Source: a virus | Virus record (IMG/VR): IMGVR_UViG_3300038423_000047 | Span: 1 to 31,888 of that record | Direction: 5' to 3' (one strand) | Length of the DNA: 31,888 nucleotides | Notes under the pieces: generated by a model | Databases searched by the model: none | What the model was told of the DNA's origin: nothing | Seen by the model: the letters and a program-made list of their open reading frames with translations, nothing else | Program-made: the position numbers and the translations under genes | Part shown: piece by piece, positions 13,329 to 29,500 of the stretch | How positions within the stretch are numbered: position 1 is the stretch's first letter | Layout: every line of letters starts with the position of its first letter

Positions 13329-13406
13329 TGGTTCCAGAGGGAGGACTCGAACCTCCAGTCTCAACGGGTTCAAAGCCCGGCGTGTTACCAATTACACTAC
13401 TCTGGA
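13329..13406 (-). tRNA. tRNA-Gln (TTG)
   Basis: The cloverleaf folds with acceptor TCCAGAG/CTCTGGA, discriminator A and encoded CCA. The D-arm is GTGTAATTGGTAACAC, the anticodon stem carries loop CTTTGAA (anticodon TTG, codon CAA), and the T-arm is GGAGG-TTCGAGT-CCTCC. The variable region is 7 nt. U1-A72 is typical for Gln. The D-arm and anticodon loop match the next tRNA, suggesting duplication. Confidence 0.9.
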
Positions 13407-13413
13407 ATAAAGC

Positions 13414-13501
13414 TGGATGGGAAGGAGGGACTCGAACCCTCACAAGCATTTACTGTCTCCTGATTCAAAGTCAGGCGTGTTACCAATTACACCACTTCCC
13501 A
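13414..13501 (-). tRNA. tRNA-Gln (TTG) with enlarged variable arm
   Basis: The acceptor TGGGAAG/CTTCCCA is followed by discriminator T and encoded CCA. The D-arm is the same as in the neighbouring Gln tRNA. Anticodon stem CCTGA/TCAGG holds loop CTTTGAA (TTG). The T-arm is GAGGG-TTCGAGT-CCCTC. Between anticodon stem and T-stem lie 17 nt that can form a small hairpin (ACAG/C-TGT with one bulge), unlike normal tRNA-Gln. The rest is intact, so it is probably functional. Confidence 0.88.
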
Positions 13502-13540
13502 ATCTATGTCAAACGCATCAAAAATGGTGCATTTGGAAAC

Positions 13541-13626
13541 TGGAGCCGGGTGCGGGATTTTAACCCACGTGGGATTTCTCCGCCTGCTTACAGGACAGGT
13601 GCCATCGTACACTAGGCTAACCCGGC
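13541..13626 (-). tRNA. tRNA-Thr (TGT), atypical elbow and variable arm
   Basis: Acceptor GCCGGGT/ACCCGGC, discriminator T, encoded CCA. Anticodon stem CCTGT/GCAGG with loop CCTGTAA gives TGT (codon ACA). The variable region is 14 nt and forms GGA-GAAA-TCC. The D-loop lacks the GG pair and the T-loop is TTAAAAT, lacking C56, so the usual D-loop/T-loop contact is lost on both sides. The 5' G is the last base of the HNH stop codon TAG. Confidence 0.82.
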
Positions 13627-14078
13627 TAACGACCGATACCACCACTTCTACATGCTCTACAAAATCTCTGGACTCCCGAGGGTTGCCACTTATTAAGATT
13701 GAACAATCCCTTACCCAGAAACTTTTTATGTCCATAGCACCATGCTTCTCCTTCTGGTGCTGTGTTTACATGATTAATTCTAGCTCTTTCTAGTTGTTCT
13801 CTTAACTTGGGAATATTCCTTCGTGCCGCCCTAATGTTGCATGACTTGTGAGAAAAGGCAATGTTACCTAAATCCCAAAACAGGTCAGGCGACATATCCA
13901 GCCAAGGTTTCTTGTGTTCAATAGAGAACTGAGCGGCGTTCTCAATCTTTTTGCCACATTGAAAGCAGCTATCCAAATTAAGTTGCTTCGCCATATGGAA
14001 AAGTAGTTGCTTCAACAACCTTCCACTTGCTGTTCCAAAAGGCATCCCCAACTGATTTCTTACCTTATAGTGGTCCAT
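13626..14078 (-). CDS. HNH endonuclease ending at a tRNA
   Basis: A 150-aa protein with CFQCGKKI, FSIEHKKPWLD and DLGNIAFSHKSCNIRAARR: the HNH ββα-metal core with its zinc-binding Cys. The C-terminal part ends with a further Cys pair (FCRACRSGG). The start ATG follows GGGGGTGGAG. The stop codon TAG shares its last base with the first base of tRNA-Thr(TGT). The 83-bp spacer upstream, before tRNA-Thr(GGT), holds no other gene. Confidence 0.88.
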   Translation of the reverse strand: MDHYKVRNQLGMPFGTASGRLLKQLLFHMAKQLNLDSCFQCGKKIENAAQFSIEHKKPWLDMSPDLFWDLGNIAFSHKSCNIRAARRNIPKLREQLERARINHVNTAPEGEAWCYGHKKFLGKGLFNLNKWQPSGVQRFCRACRSGGIGR

Positions 14079-14161
14079 ACTCCACCCCCAATAAAGGTGG
14101 AGATAGTTGAGAATTTGGGAATTACAGTTGTCTCCATTCTAAAAAAATACTCAATAAAACT

Positions 14162-14236
14162 TGGAGCCCAAGGTCAGAATCGAACTGACGACCCCTCCCT
14201 TACCAAGGGAATGCTCTACCACTGAGCTACGAGGGC
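14162..14236 (-). tRNA. tRNA-Thr (GGT)
   Basis: The D-arm GCTCAGTGGTAGAGC, anticodon stem TTCCC/GGGAG with loop TTGGTAA (anticodon GGT, codon ACC), T-arm GTCAG-TTCGATT-CTGAC and encoded CCA are all present. The acceptor stem GCCCTCG/CTTGGGC pairs at five of seven positions, with mismatches at 5-68 and 6-67. It is otherwise canonical and probably functional. Confidence 0.88.
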
Positions 14237-14242
14237 TAAAAA

Positions 14243-14318
14243 TGGAGCCGATGAGCGGCCCTGACCCGCTGACCTCTCGCTTACGAGGCGAGTGCTCTGC
14301 CACCTGAGCTACATCGGC
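14243..14318 (-). tRNA. tRNA-Thr (CGT)
   Basis: Acceptor GCCGATG/CATCGGC, discriminator T, encoded CCA. D-arm GCTCAGGTGGCAGAGC. Anticodon stem CTCGC/GCGAG with loop CTCGTAA gives CGT (codon ACG). T-stem AGCGG/CCGCT encloses an unusual loop GTCAGGG, in which the normal T54 is G. It is the third threonine tRNA of the cluster and lies 6 bp from tRNA-Thr(GGT). Confidence 0.9.
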
Positions 14319-14325
14319 ATAGGGA

Positions 14326-14364
14326 CGCCCCGAGGGCGACCCCAACTCCTCCCACTATGGTGGG
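14326..14364 (-). other. Two adjacent hairpins in a tRNA spacer
   Basis: Between tRNA-Ile and tRNA-Thr(CGT) lie two 5-bp stems: CCCAC-CATA-GTGGG (14351-14364) and CGCCC-TCG-GGGCG (14326-14338). No U-run follows on the minus strand, so processing or insulation of the polycistronic tRNA precursor is more likely than termination (inference). Confidence 0.45.
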
Positions 14365-14368
14365 TGAG

Positions 14369-15211
14369 CTAAAAACTTGGTCCAGTCGGGAAGAGTCGAA
14401 CTTCCGTTGTGCGATTATCAGTCGCAAGTTCTACCGTTGAACTAAGACTGGTCTTCAAATTTCCGTGTCTTACAAGCGCACGGAACTTCCCGGAACAAGA
14501 CTGGTTGCAAAACTTCAACTTTCCTTCTTCGTGAGGACGGTCTTTTAGCTCTTGATGGCAGAATCCGCACTCTGCTAGTTTACACGCCTCGGCTGTCATT
14601 CCACCATGTCGCTCCAAAAGTGCCTTACAGCGACGATAGTTTAAGGCATTGCGATTCTTCCCAAGAGACTCCAAGGCTGCGCCAATGCTACGAGTCTCAA
14701 GTAGAGCTACTAAAAGCCGCTCATCAGTTATTTCGTAATCGCCTTTCCTATGACCCCTTCCCCTTCCTTTACCACAGTATGTCGGCGTCTGGCTGTGGCA
14801 ATTAGGGCATAGACCTCGAAGGTTCTCACGCTGATTATTTTGCGTATCCCCGTCAGCATGGTCAACCTGCAACGTCAGAGGAGTTCCCATCCACTCCTTA
14901 ATTCCACAACGAGAGCAAGCCTTGTCTTGCTCAACGATAACCCGTTTCTTCTTGCTCTCAACGGTCAAGGAATCAAAATCCGCTTCCAACAACTGTCTAA
15001 GCTTGGTTTGGCTTGAGCGCCGACCCGCTCTTTCCCTGGCCTCCTGACTTACCTTATGACCATAAAGCTTAAGGGATATTTTTTTGTTCTTCTCCTTCCG
15101 ATTCTGTGTTGAAACAAAATTTCTAGCACAAAACTCGGAACAGAACCGCCCTGACCCATACGACCCATCATGCTCTTTCTTGCACTTCTCGTTCTCACAT
15201 TGAACCACCAT
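14369..15211 (-). CDS. HNH homing endonuclease whose 3' end contains tRNA-Ile
   Basis: A 280-aa protein. The N-terminal zinc element is CENEKCKKEH...FCSEFCARNF. The HNH core is CSRCGIKEW, LQVDHADGDTQNNQRENLRG and CPNCHSQ. A helix-turn-helix-like stretch DERLLVALLETRSIGAALES follows, and a last zinc pair CGFCHQ...FCNQSC. The final 28 codons are the tRNA-Ile gene read as protein, so the native C-terminus is probably around NLKT. A ribosome site TAGGAGCATACTATA precedes the start. Confidence 0.88.
   Translation of the reverse strand: MVVQCENEKCKKEHDGSYGSGRFCSEFCARNFVSTQNRKEKNKKISLKLYGHKVSQEARERAGRRSSQTKLRQLLEADFDSLTVESKKKRVIVEQDKACSRCGIKEWMGTPLTLQVDHADGDTQNNQRENLRGLCPNCHSQTPTYCGKGRGRGHRKGDYEITDERLLVALLETRSIGAALESLGKNRNALNYRRCKALLERHGGMTAEACKLAECGFCHQELKDRPHEEGKLKFCNQSCSGKFRALVRHGNLKTSLSSTVELATDNRTTEVRLFPTGPSF
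14378..14451 (-). tRNA. tRNA-Ile (GAT), nested in an HNH reading frame
   Basis: Acceptor CCAGTCT/CGACTGG (one mismatch at 7-66), discriminator A, encoded CCA. D-arm GTTCAACGGTAGAAC, anticodon stem TGCGA/TCGCA with loop CTGATAA (GAT, codon ATC), T-arm GGAAG-TTCGACT-CTTCC. The whole gene lies on the same strand inside the 3' end of the HNH frame. Confidence 0.9.
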
Positions 15212-15252
15212 TATAGTATGCTCCTATAATAGTGGTTCAAAAGTCCAATCTT

Positions 15253-15327
15253 TGGTGCGCCCGGAAGGACTCAAACCTTCGTGACTCCCCTATCGAGGGA
15301 GCATATTCGTCGCTATATGACAGGCGC
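15253..15327 (-). tRNA. Degenerate tRNA, anticodon GAT in the regular register
   Basis: Acceptor GCGCCTG/CGGGCGC, discriminator A and encoded CCA are perfect, and the T-stem GAAGG/CCTTC is intact. The D-loop lacks GG, the T-loop is TTTGAGT (C56 lost), and loop TCGATAG has C at position 33 instead of the near-universal T. Shifting the loop by one gives T33 and anticodon CGA but a poorer stem. It may be a decaying or specialised tRNA. It follows the stop of the 119-aa gene by 6 bp. Confidence 0.65.
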
Positions 15328-15333
15328 ACAATC

Positions 15334-15693
15334 TTAACCTAATATCCTCTTAATCTCTTCCTCAACTCTCTCCCGGAACAACGCAAAGTGCTGCACAAAT
15401 CCAAGCGGTGGATCACAAGATCCGGGGAAGATATCCACTCCCTCGGGGACCCTGTCGTAGTCCCGCTCATGCGGAACCTTTCCCATATCCCGGACGATGT
15501 GAACAATAGCCGCTTTGGCTCCCTCCGGGCCGAACAACTTCTGCGCCTCTCTCACTCCATGCAGGTTATGGCGCATCCTGCGGTGCCGGGGGCCGAACTT
15601 CCAGAACAATCCATCGACCCACAGGTTGACATCCTCATGCTTATTGCCGAGGATGATTTGACAGTCCATGCAATGCTGCTGGAACTTCGCCAT
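15334..15693 (-). CDS. DUF6915-like protein of 119 aa
   Basis: The pattern HCMDCQIILG, WVDGLFWKFGPRHRRMRHNL, GVREAQKLFGPEGAKAAIVHI resembles small proteins of the DUF6915 type (H, then D, then FRHR-xx-RHH-xx-G), compared from memory. It is rich in His and Arg and has no membrane segment. The start MAKFQQH has GGGGGTTCT upstream. A terminator-like hairpin separates it from the ncRNA candidate, and a tRNA follows directly. The function is unknown. Confidence 0.68.
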   Translation of the reverse strand: MAKFQQHCMDCQIILGNKHEDVNLWVDGLFWKFGPRHRRMRHNLHGVREAQKLFGPEGAKAAIVHIVRDMGKVPHERDYDRVPEGVDIFPGSCDPPLGFVQHFALFRERVEEEIKRILG

Positions 15694-15701
15694 AGAACCC
15701 C

Positions 15702-15737
15702 CATAAAACACGAAAGCCGCCAGAAAGAATGGCGGCT
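15702..15737 (-). terminator. Intrinsic terminator-like hairpin
   Basis: On the minus strand a perfect 8-bp stem AGCCGCCA/TGGCGGCT with loop TTCTTTC is followed by TTCGTGTTTT. The U-run is interrupted, so termination may be partial and allow read-through into the 119-aa gene and tRNA cluster. It closes the structured region upstream. Confidence 0.65.
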
Positions 15738-16022
15738 GCTGAGTCTCGGCTTGGTCTTTGTTATGCCAAGCAGGCTCCGCCGCCTGAACTAATCGTAGTT
15801 TGCGTTTGTGTGTGCGGCATGGTGATAGTCAACATTGCGCTTCTCTTTGAATGTCCGGGGCGGTCGCCTAGCGTCCACCCCGGATGGGTATATCTGCTGT
15901 AATTCGCCGGGACCTTGTCCGAGTCCGCTTCGGGGTCTAACCTAACGGGAGGCCCTTTTAAGACCAGCCATTTTTCTGGGACAAGAAGGTTCCCGGTTAG
16001 GAGTAGAGCCGTAGCTCCCTCC
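15705..16022 (-). ncRNA. Candidate structured noncoding RNA (about 320 nt)
   Basis: The minus-strand region has no convincing gene but dense secondary structure. (i) A 5' hairpin (16000-16022) is capped by a C(UACG)G tetraloop. (ii) A 14-bp stem with two small bulges joins 15979-15996 to 15907-15920. (iii) A 13-pair hairpin lies at 15854-15884. (iv) A 6-bp hairpin lies at 15749-15771. (v) The terminator hairpin closes it. Two pairs are G-U only if the minus strand is the RNA. An extended -10 site 7 bp upstream would start transcription at the first hairpin base. Short frames exist (10 codons MAGLKRASR then TAG, and an in-frame stretch after it) but none has a placed ribosome site. No match to tmRNA or group I intron cores was seen. 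Confidence 0.6.
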
Positions 16023-16028
16023 TTCTAT

Positions 16029-16037
16029 ATAATACCA
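16029..16037 (-). promoter_or_regulatory. Extended -10 promoter-like site (TGGTATTAT) before the ncRNA candidate
   Basis: The minus strand has CCGGTGGTATTATATAG; TGGTATTAT is an extended -10 box. TGCAAA lies 17 bp upstream, a weak -35. The first transcribed base would fall near 16022, the first base of the UACG-capped hairpin. It shares GTGGTAT with the sites at 7971 and 16323. A short ACCG/CGGT stem with a plus-strand T-run lies just upstream. Confidence 0.5.
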
Positions 16038-16058
16038 CCGGTAGTCGGTTTTTTGCAG

Positions 16059-16360: not shown

Positions 16361-17065
16361 CTAAACTTTAATTTCTTCTCGCATCTGACGGATAAGTTTT
16401 CCAATTCGCAGCCACTCCTCGTAGGTGAAGTGGTCGAGCTTAGCTTTATTACAACGGGTACAACTTACTACCAAGTTATTTTTGGAATATCCAAGCGATG
16501 AATCCTTACGGTCAAGGTTTGTCGGTCCTTTCTTACCGACATTCCACTTCGTCCAAGAAACCATGTCCCCACAATAATGGCAGTTGGATACAACGGTATA
16601 AGAAATAAAATCAGCATATGAAAGGTCAAAAGGTACACTGCGTTTAGCTGCACTCTGACGCACCCTGTTATAAAGAGACTCGAATGGTTGTTTACGGCTT
16701 GAAAACCCACGGAAGCATCCACAACTTCTAACTCCATGTATCATCAGCAAGCTTGTTGACTTAACAACCTTGACTTTACCACAACCACAACGGCATTCCC
16801 ATTTGGGGGGCTGACGACTGACCATCCTAAGTGCTATAAGTTTCCCGAAAACCCGCCCGGTTAGGTCTTTAGGGAGTACCTTCATTCCTAAATTACATCC
16901 ACAACTCCTTGTTCGCTTGCCACGAAGGCTACCTGTTTGTATTATTTTTGTGGTTCCGCAATCACAGAGGCATAACCATCTTGTTTTTCCATATAAATTC
17001 TCAGCTTTAGATTTAACAACCAACTTTCCAAACCTTACTCCTACCAAATCAACTGGTCTTCCCAT
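16361..17065 (-). CDS. HNH endonuclease with two tandem N-terminal zinc motifs
   Basis: A 234-aa protein. The N-terminus has two copies of a Cys-rich DNA-binding motif: GVRFGKLVV...WLCLCDCG...RSCGC and GRVFGKLIA...WECRCGCG...RSCGC. Then a linker and an HNH core: CHYCGDMVSW, GPTNLDRKDSSLGYSKNNLV and SCTRCNKAKLDHFTYEEW. Such repeats precede HNH domains in phage homing endonucleases. The AT-rich DNA differs from its neighbours. The start follows GGGGGTTTTACACT. Confidence 0.9.
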   Translation of the reverse strand: MGRPVDLVGVRFGKLVVKSKAENLYGKTRWLCLCDCGTTKIIQTGSLRGKRTRSCGCNLGMKVLPKDLTGRVFGKLIALRMVSRQPPKWECRCGCGKVKVVKSTSLLMIHGVRSCGCFRGFSSRKQPFESLYNRVRQSAAKRSVPFDLSYADFISYTVVSNCHYCGDMVSWTKWNVGKKGPTNLDRKDSSLGYSKNNLVVSCTRCNKAKLDHFTYEEWLRIGKLIRQMREEIKV

Positions 17066-26518: not shown

Positions 26519-29500
26519 CTAAGTTCCTGATGTTAAATAATTTATAGTTACTCTCCCAGCAGAAAAATATTCCGTAGCACTCAATGTTATATCTTTAGCA
26601 CTACTCTCACCCTCTACAACATATGTGACAAAGTAAGACTTCAAAGAGGGGGAGGTGGTATCCGCAGGGATGGTGATGATGACCTTTTGAGCATAGGCAC
26701 TTTGATATTGCGCAGCAAGACCGGGGTCGTTGGTACCGATGATGTAGAAAGAGCCATTCTGTGACGAAACCAAGGGCGTGGCAGCGGTAGACAGGAAGTT
26801 GCTTATTGAAGAGGTACGGGCGTAAGCCTGACCCTCATAGAGCAATCCCACAAACGCTTCGGCAGGTCCGCCACTGGGCACCGTGCTATCCGGTAAAATG
26901 GGAACGGTAGTGATGAAACTGTGGGCGGGCACCGCTTGTCCGCTAAAGGCCGGGTCATTCGTCAGAGGAGTCCACAGCGTGCCCGTGGGAATAACAAAGC
27001 CGATATCGTAAGAACCATCCGACTTGGCGCACTTGATGAGTGGGATTCCCACCGACTTGACGCCACTTATCGCCTGCACCAATGAAACGATGCTGGACTG
27101 ATACAGAGTTCCCGTAGCGCTGTCCAACGCTTGGTCAATGGCGGTGCGCACAGCGGAGTCTACTGTATCCGGTGAAATGCCACTATTGAGAGTCACCGTC
27201 AAGGTGATGTCGATAGGATTGGCAACCATGGCCTTGACAAGGACGCTTGCACCCGCCGCCTTAGTGATGTTTATCTGGTTAACCAAGATGGGAACGAACG
27301 AGGGATACTCGGTCGCAGTGGTGAATGCTTCGGTGTAGAAGTAAGACACCAACACCTGCCCACCGTCTGGGATGCGGCTGGTCGCATTGGTGCCGAGATT
27401 GCGGGCAATGGTCACTGCGCCGGATGTCGTGTCCACGTTAAGAACAAAGTCCACGTTCTCAATCATGACCTCGTAGGCGGGCGGGCTGACGCTGGTCTGA
27501 TAGAGGACTTCGATATAGCGGCTGTCATGAGGAACTCCCGCTCCCACCAGTCCGGTGGAGTTGGTGAGGTTGATGGTCCCATCCGTATTGTATGCTGCCC
27601 CATTCAACGTCAAATCAAACCGGCCATAACTCTCGGGAAGCCACGTATTATACACAAACCCGTTGTTATCAAGGGAGTTTGCAACGCTGCCATTAAGGGT
27701 CTGAGGCTCCATGGAAGCGAAGCTGAGGTTCTCGTGCAGGATAAACTGATTGAAGCTCACCACGACTTGCTGGTTGTTCTGGATGGAGCTTCCGGTCGCT
27801 GTCCCCGTGTCGGAGGCAAAAGCATAATCGCTGTGATTGTAAACGGCAGTGAACTGTGTCCCATTGGAGCTTGCCACGGTCACATTCTGACCGTTAAGGA
27901 AAGAAGCGGATGTAAGTCCGGCAAGCGTGAGGGGCGCTCCTGCTCCAAAGCTGTTGATGCAATTTACGGTGAGGATGTTGTTGGAGATGGAGATACCTGT
28001 AATGGTCTTGGACACGGTGAGTGTTTTAAGGCCGTAGGTAGCGTAGCAGCCGACATAAGGCCCTGCGGGGGTGCCGTAAGGAGACGGCTCTGGCACCAAG
28101 GTGTAATCAGACCCGTTGACATACAGGGTAGACAGGTCCGAAGAACGGACTGAGAGGACATCCCCCAAAACACCACTAGGGTCAACGGAGATATCCATGG
28201 CGGTGCCGATGGTTACAGGTGTAGTGGTGCTAGCGGTGATGGTCACAGTGATGGGGGTTGTAGCGGTGGAGACCACCTGCACCATGTCACCCGCCTGATT
28301 AGACCCACCATTGAGCAGGAAGTCAGAGGTGTGTACGAGGTCCAACAGGGCCTCGGGGATGGTGCCGGTGAAATTCGTCTGCCCGATGACCGAGTTGACG
28401 TTGGTGACCGGCTGATTCGTGGGGGTATCCACGAGGGGAGACTGGAGCCGGGCATTCAGGAGATAGGTGCCGTTGAATCCCACGCCCTGCACGGCGGCGA
28501 GATTGCTCAGTGGAGCGGCGAGCGTAGGATAAGAAATTCTGACCTGTGTTGCCCCGCTCCCGGAGATGTAGTAGGCATTGGCGCTGGGATTAAGGATGAT
28601 GTATCCGCCATTGGTGTCGAACTGTGCCTCACTGATATCAAGGAAGAAGGAGTTGGAAAGCCCTTGAACGAGAAGCTCCACTCCTTGGTAGAGAGGCCAA
28701 TTAAGCGCTTGAAAGTTGGCGCTGGCAACCTGAAACTTGAGTAGGTTGTTGGTAGCCGACACGAGGGTGAGTGGAAGGTAGGTGCTGTATACTCCCGGAG
28801 CACTGGCATTATCATATTCAAACGATACGATGTCATCCTCCTCGGAGGAGGAAGTTCCCTGACAGTAAACGTCCACACAACCAAACACGTGCTTTTGCCG
28901 AATGTTATCCCAGTCACGAACCATCTCAAGGTCACCGGCTGCTACCACTTCTACCGCAACGATGCCCGGTGTGGATGCTGCCGTGGTGTAATACCCATTG
29001 CGGGTTCCCGAGTCCACTCCAGTAAACTGCCGGTTGACAATGCGAGCGGCGAAGTGAGAGTTGATTTCATCATCAACTCCGAAGGTAGCCGCCGCAAGGT
29101 TGGTGACCGACCACCCTGCCGGGGCATTGGAGCCGATAGAGTTGATAGTCCCCGCTCCCACATTGGTACTGGAGCCGGTGGTTTGGCAAGATGCCGGAAC
29201 TGTAACTCCCCACCAACCATACACGGGGTTGTAAAATGAGGCAGCGGAGGATGGGGTGATGGAGGCCGAACCGGTAGTCTGGAAGTTAATGGATGGGGTA
29301 GAGGCGTCTCCTGTGGTAGAACAGATGATGCCAGTAGGAAAGGTGGTGGTCGTTGTGGGCTGGCTATAGGTATAGAAAGTGAGATTGACGACCGATGGTG
29401 TAGCTCCTCCACGAGTGAGACCCACAGACTGTCCGAGATGGTCGAATTGTTGGTCAATGAATGTCTGAGTATCGGCGGCATTAAGCCCATAAGCTCGGGC

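Follow-up and report, generated by a model that had tools for sequence, protein, structure and literature searches.

Leader of a phage tRNA operon with the features of ribosome-mediated transcription attenuation, and matched leader peptides ahead of other phage tRNA clusters

Described attenuators and phage tRNA arrays

The trp, his, thr, leu, ilv and pheST leaders of enterobacteria share a short open reading frame (ORF) of control codons with a terminator soon after its stop codon, an antiterminator and a terminator that have one strand in common, and downstream genes that relieve the shortage being sensed. The leaders described herein resemble them in each of these respects, but are phage-encoded and precede tRNA genes rather than biosynthesis or synthetase genes; they also differ in covering up to nine amino acids per leader, with many synonymous codons and unrelated sequences. 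T-box riboswitches likewise respond to tRNA charging by controlling transcription termination, although the T-box RNA binds uncharged tRNA directly and without translation, and the leader reported here has no match in Rfam. With regard to the downstream genes, the arrays of T4, T5, XacN1, phiCbK and phage G similarly consist of clustered tRNA genes, often interspersed with HNH genes, whilst the clusters examined in T4, T5, XacN1 and LukeCage differ in having no convincing matched leader. GOLLD and ROOL are large structured phage RNAs found near phage tRNA genes, from which the present RNA is set apart by the conserved ORF and attenuator within it, as well as by the lack of an Rfam match.

Why phages carry tRNA genes, and when they express them, is debated, the usual answers being biased codon usage and evasion of defences that cut tRNAs. 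No charge-sensing control of phage tRNAs is known to us from earlier reports, and a search of the openly available full-text literature yielded no account of leader peptides controlling phage tRNA genes. The paper on Tunturiibacter phage Tunturi_5 lists 43 tRNAs and describes no such control (PMC11924767), and a 2026 review of jumbo phages mentions neither leader peptides nor attenuation (PMC13282480). Attenuation as a mechanism is thus known, and as far as open full texts go no earlier description was found of it in the setting of phage tRNA operons.

The leader ahead of the Ile/Thr/Gln tRNA genes

The window analysed is a stretch of 31,888 nt (IMG/VR record IMGVR_UViG_3300038423_000047), in which a first-pass annotation had proposed positions 15705-16037 of the minus strand, taken to hold no convincing gene, as a candidate independent, structured noncoding RNA equipped with promoter and terminator. 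The structural part of that description holds: the minus-strand fold contains P1, the long-range stem, the 15883-15855 hairpin and the terminator, the -10 hexamer is found where it had been placed, and a tRNA/HNH cluster lies downstream (Table 1). What does not stand is the absence of a gene, and with it, probably, the status as a stand-alone noncoding RNA, as the region contains a 24-codon ORF that is in frame in all relatives and escaped notice in a list restricted to ORFs of at least 60 aa. Our reading, to which we assign a probability of roughly 0.9, is that the region serves as leader to a phage tRNA operon under ribosome-mediated transcription attenuation of the trp/his type.

Table 1. 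Features of the leader and operon in the window
Feature	Position	Strand	Remarks
Promoter	16028..16058	-	Extended -10 GGTGGTATTATATAG, with hexamer TATTAT at 16034-16029; weak -35-like CTGCAA 18 bp upstream, -35 assigned by eye
P1, 5′ hairpin of the leader	16000..16022	-	Arms 16022-16014/16009-16000; equivalent hairpin of other sequence in relatives
P2, long-range stem	15907..15996	-	15996-15988 paired to 15914-15907 around an inner region
P4 hairpin, CCGGGGTGG...CCGCCCCGG	15855..15883	-	Arms 15883-15875/15863-15855; from fold and relatives
Leader peptide ORF, MLTITMPHTQTQTTISSGGGACLA and stop	15761..15835	-	Putative Thr/Gln/Ile control codons; conserved frame
Segment 2, GGCGGC (codons Gly18-Gly19)	15779..15784	-	Upstream strand of antiterminator, with segment 3 as its partner in ribosome-masked folds
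Inner hairpin, GCTTGG...CCAAGC	15749..15771	-	Around and after the stop codon, within the antiterminator
Intrinsic terminator, AGCCGCCA-loop-TGGCGGCT	15715..15737	-	5′ arm is segment 3, 3′ arm is segment 4; T-rich tail TTCGTGTTTT, 15737-15705 with tail
DUF6915-like protein, first gene of operon	15334..15693	-	Pfam PF21866 just under cut-off
Operon body	13329..15327	-	tRNA-Ile(gat) x2, tRNA-Thr(cgt, ggt, tgt), tRNA-Gln(ttg) x2; HNH genes inserted

The locus combines a predicted leader ORF rich in codons for the amino acids concerned, a match of these amino acids to the operon, a terminator 23 nt beyond the stop codon and, in folding, an antiterminator that excludes it. The tRNA genes behind the leader are of Ile, Thr and Gln isotypes only, and these three amino acids occupy 10 of 23 codons of the leader, with 9 of 12 in its best window and all four Thr codons represented. 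The start sites of this and the other leaders are predictions, and the Shine-Dalgarno sequence of the window leader is poor.

Searching with the DUF6915-like neighbour returned two near-identical contigs and the 317-kb phage G001, whose unit is ~97 % identical to that of the window; more distant contigs were reached via a baseplate protein and an alignment of DUF6915, and the nearest named phage is Tunturi_5. The identity to G001 is not special, because coding stretches of the two phages share identical runs of up to 271 bp, and ultra-conservation was accordingly discarded as evidence for an RNA gene. The longest such run (27484-27754 of the window) lies in a gene that is otherwise ~70-80 % identical, and may reflect mosaic exchange between the two phages. 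Beyond the known relatives, the hits of a 16-mer scan of IMG/VR were mostly due to chance and those of an 18-mer scan were unrelated coding sequence only; the apparent matches L055 and L108 proved to be coding sequence and were set aside, and BLAST of the window RNA against phages and plasmids gave no match.

All distant relatives keep the promoter block, structured stretch, small ORF and terminator, with the DUF6915-like gene immediately 3′ of the leader in every case. The promoter block itself, ACTACCGGTGGTATTATAT, is also near-identical ahead of stable-RNA and tRNA units in G001. The leader frame is maintained in relatives where the adjacent protein is 59-89 % identical, with peptides of MLTITMPHTQTQTTISSGGGACLA in the window and G001, MLSMNKPQTQTTQTIGAGGGACSA in G005, MLMNVTMPHTQTQTQIRAGGGACSG in G010, MMTITMPHTQTTTQIRVGGGACSG in G011, MMNITMPHTQTQTQIWAGGGACSG in G012, and a longer version ending ...HTSTTTQIRSGGGACSG in G014. 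Behind these ORFs there are always Thr and Gln tRNAs, and nearly always Ile; the more distant phage G007 similarly has MSQQHQTRTTTQTQITGHSGFVSDGWYD ahead of Ile/Thr/Gln tRNAs. Homologues therefore conserve the reading frame, and they conserve base pairs too: every relative retains the terminator (100 % of cells paired), and the inner hairpin has 95 % of cells paired, with one U-A pair changed to C-G. Covariation in the window family is otherwise weak, since segment 2 is invariant, the stretch GGC GGC GGA GCC TGC being unchanged, third positions included, in 7/7 sequences.

HNH endonuclease genes are located at 16361-17065 and 14369-15211 of the window, between or beside the tRNA genes. Neither stretch has a counterpart in the G001 alignment, which suggests recent homing insertions, and the ORF at 14369-15211 overlaps tRNA-Ile at 14378-14451.

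Matched leaders in other clusters and phages

Peptides matched to their tRNA cluster were identified in 19 leader-cluster pairs. In G001, each of the four main tRNA clusters is preceded by a leader with the isotype composition of its own cluster. One, MKNLSSNSLSSLSYSSSLLSGL..., lies ahead of Tyr/Leu/Ser tRNAs; another, MRNRKPNPMQWQPKRHFSRPSFGGLPFAP (also given as MRNRKPNPMQWQPKRHF), ahead of His/Arg/Asn/Lys/Phe/Met/Pro/Gln(ctg)/Trp tRNAs; a third, MNMKTAITNPVDLIEAVAAVCEGGD..., ahead of Val/Gly/Ala/Asp/Glu/Cys tRNAs; and the fourth ahead of Ile/Thr/Gln(ttg) tRNAs, such that the four sets jointly amount to all twenty amino acids. Glutamine is split by anticodon, with the leader of the ctg cluster using CAG only and that of the ttg cluster, in G001 and the window, CAA only; elsewhere, Ile/Thr/Gln leaders use both codons. 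Sampling of cognate codons is broad, as in G001-A, which contains all six Leu and five of six Ser codons. The same pattern of leader and cluster is displayed by G009, G010, G012 and Tunturi_5, the latter with three different sets, and where Tunturi_5 places Cys in its Leu/Tyr/Ser cluster, the leader of that cluster has Cys codons.

Lineages that stand apart also carry such leaders, namely Tunturi_5 (three clusters), CcrColossus and phiCbK-type phages, Atu_ph07 and phage G. In CcrColossus, MMTYRNNVRQIRVRQFNLAG... accompanies an Ile/Asn/Gln/Arg/Val cluster, in Atu_ph07 ...EIIAIERNVFVRAEAAMFWYPI... an Ala/Glu/Phe/Ile/Met/Pro/Arg/Trp/Tyr cluster, and in Bacillus phage G MMKCSWFEFDTDFTDVFYCEYTFYSLYTF... 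a Cys/Asp/Glu/Phe/Ser/Thr/Tyr cluster. Several of these ORFs are already annotated as hypothetical genes at the same coordinates (Tunturi_5 gp308, Atu_ph07 AUZ95228.1 and phage G gp86), the leader ORF of RBC57 was called as a gene by other annotators (XTP78787.1), and the terminator of the CcrColossus leader is present in the existing annotation. A total of 46 records of Caulobacter and Brevundimonas phages, phiCbK included, contain the CcrColossus leader region, with an antiterminator of ~16 bp.

One CcrColossus cluster was examined with no convincing leader being found, as for the XacN1, LukeCage, T4 and T5 clusters, and matched leaders are therefore not universal. A G008 cluster of 16 tRNAs with the Val/Ala/Gly/Asp/Glu/Cys set (30356-35676, minus strand) yielded no leader under the automatic rule described below. 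In RaK2 (L301), a short ORF, MRGTLRLSLGLNRKDCVLNRLES..., matches its own Leu/Gly/Arg/Ser/Asn tRNA cluster; it has no proper terminator and was not counted, and is possibly a decayed or different version of a leader.

The strength of these matches was gauged against 10,282 short ORFs from the same genomes, each scored by its best 12-codon window. The 9 of 12 reached by the window leader is equalled by 0.12 % of this background, and most leaders fall within its top 0.01-0.4 %, with G009-A, B and C and G010-C being weaker (1-6 %). Each leader gives its top score, or a tie, with a cluster of matching type, and when 13 leaders were randomly reassigned to clusters, none of 100,000 reassignments reached the observed match score, although the first leaders were chosen by eye and related phages within the set are not independent. 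An automatic rule, requiring, upstream of a tRNA cluster, a short ORF with an intrinsic terminator 5-60 nt past its end, recovers nearly all leaders among those to which it was applied, and its top candidates in CcrColossus, Atu_ph07 and phage G rank in about the top 1 % of regional short ORFs.

Folding of the proposed switch and competing explanations

Folding of the RNA from 12 nt past the start of the A-site codon through the terminator loop, so that the ribosome masks what lies upstream, indicates that the 5′ arm of the terminator is bound by upstream sequence with the ribosome on the control codons, and is freed once it moves on. For the window, the probability of sequestration is 0.75 through Thr14, 0.63 at Ile15 and 0.13 from Ser16. 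Across 17 leaders (G009-B, with a matched peptide and an unclear terminator, was excluded from the folding statistics), 162/203 codons are cognate within the 12 positions ahead of the switch, as against 44/164 beyond it (Fisher p 4e-25, with relatedness disregarded); in G009-A, G009-C and T5-c cognate codons run past the switch. This masked-antiterminator behaviour is strongest in G001-A and B and in the Caulobacter phages, and modest in the window, where 0.75 compares with 0.51 for shuffled spacers and 10 % of shuffles are as high. The stalled-state fold of Caulobacter and Brevundimonas phages reaches about -50 kcal/mol, and phage Bajun displays matching changes in both antiterminator strands. 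In equilibrium folds that include the finished terminator, the terminator of the window wins whatever the position of the ribosome, and the switch must therefore be co-transcriptional, and hence kinetic, like that of classical attenuators.

We infer translation of the window leader, stalling, read-through and biological purpose as follows. Transcription would begin near 16022 and the leader ORF, with its Thr, Gln and Ile codons, would be translated. Were charged tRNA-Thr, -Gln or -Ile scarce, the ribosome would stall on these codons and leave GGCGGC free to pair with GCCGCC in the 5′ arm of the terminator, forming the antiterminator before the 3′ arm is made and allowing RNA polymerase to continue into the tRNA genes. 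With tRNAs plentiful, the ribosome would reach the stop codon and cover GGCGGC, the terminator would form, and only a leader RNA of ~300 nt would be released. Other clusters of these phages, and several unrelated jumbo phages, would employ the same switch, each with its own matched peptide. As the leaders spell the isotypes of their own clusters, the signal would be a shortage of those charged tRNAs, and each set would be made when the infected cell runs short of it, for instance through draining, degradation or cleavage of the host pool by a defence nuclease. Matched leaders thus predict on-demand tRNA expression, and a readable sequence code for the amino acids sensed by each cluster. That charge-sensing attenuation is a general and repeatedly evolved control of phage tRNA arrays, with some jumbo phages splitting the amino acids among a few tRNA regulons, each turned on when its own charged tRNAs run short, and the tRNAs serving as a demand-driven repair kit against a drained or cleaved host pool, seems on balance probable; if true, textbook attenuation extends from amino-acid biosynthesis to viral translation machinery.

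With regard to the original reading, in which a stand-alone structured RNA has the tRNA genes and the small ORF as incidental neighbours, several properties are those expected of it. The minus strand of 15705-16037 folds with an MFE of -121.6 (z -3.4, 0/100 shuffles as stable), as had been anticipated, the unit has its own promoter and terminator and is ~97 % identical to G001, and helices of the 5′ domain are kept despite sequence change. The plus strand, however, folds above shuffles just as well (z -3.6), so that folding stability alone cannot pick the strand, the identity to G001 is unremarkable for the reason given above, and neither the conserved frame nor the cluster-matched peptides are explained, which makes this a very unlikely account. 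Similarly improbable is a version that keeps the leader and passes its signal through Rho-dependent termination or RNA stability. The long and structured 5′ domain, and the equilibrium preference for the terminator at all ribosome positions, would suit such a scheme; against this, nearly every leader ORF is followed by an intrinsic terminator, and the antiterminator ceases to form at about the point where the control codons end.

The product of the ORF could alternatively be a functional micropeptide acting in trans, its likeness to the tRNA set being only compositional, and a C-terminus of GGGAC(S/L)(G/A) is indeed conserved in the D family. The C-terminal Gly codons, however, do not vary even at third positions and also serve as an antiterminator strand, and between clusters the peptides share nothing but a composition fitted to their own tRNAs, leaving this even less credible than the two preceding accounts. 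Least plausible of all, with a negligible chance, is a T-box or other metabolite- or tRNA-binding riboswitch. A structured leader and terminator do precede tRNA genes, but Rfam, with T-box, riboswitch, GOLLD, ROOL, tmRNA and group I intron models included, gave no match over the region at gathering threshold or permissively (E up to 10), in keeping with the first-pass annotation having recognised no known class; and because the peptides match their clusters, a riboswitch is unnecessary. A tmRNA-like reading of GCAAACTACGATTAG was rejected in view of a missing tRNA-like domain and a negative ARAGORN result, as was a group I intron, for which no convincing motifs were seen by eye.

Beyond ribosome-mediated attenuation, the ~190 nt 5′ of the leader ORF (15855-16022 of the window, and equivalents) fold into P1, P2, P3 and P4 with changed sequence in relatives, a P2-equivalent stem of mostly different sequence occurring in five more distant ones. 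The leader of G001 cluster C has almost no such domain, which is thus not required for the attenuation scheme, although it may have an extra role, and the terminated leader of ~300 nt might go on to act as a small RNA. At L178:18600-18780 (minus strand), G001 has a second promoter-like site, GGTATAATG, and after it ~190 nt that look structured and have no match in Rfam; both immediately precede the promoter of the cluster C leader. G001 also carries genes for a class A RNase P RNA and for a tmRNA (L178:12982-13290 and 15448-15801, both minus strand) in addition to ~60 tRNAs, and a TATTATAT promoter, as found at the leaders, is likewise present upstream of its RNase P region.
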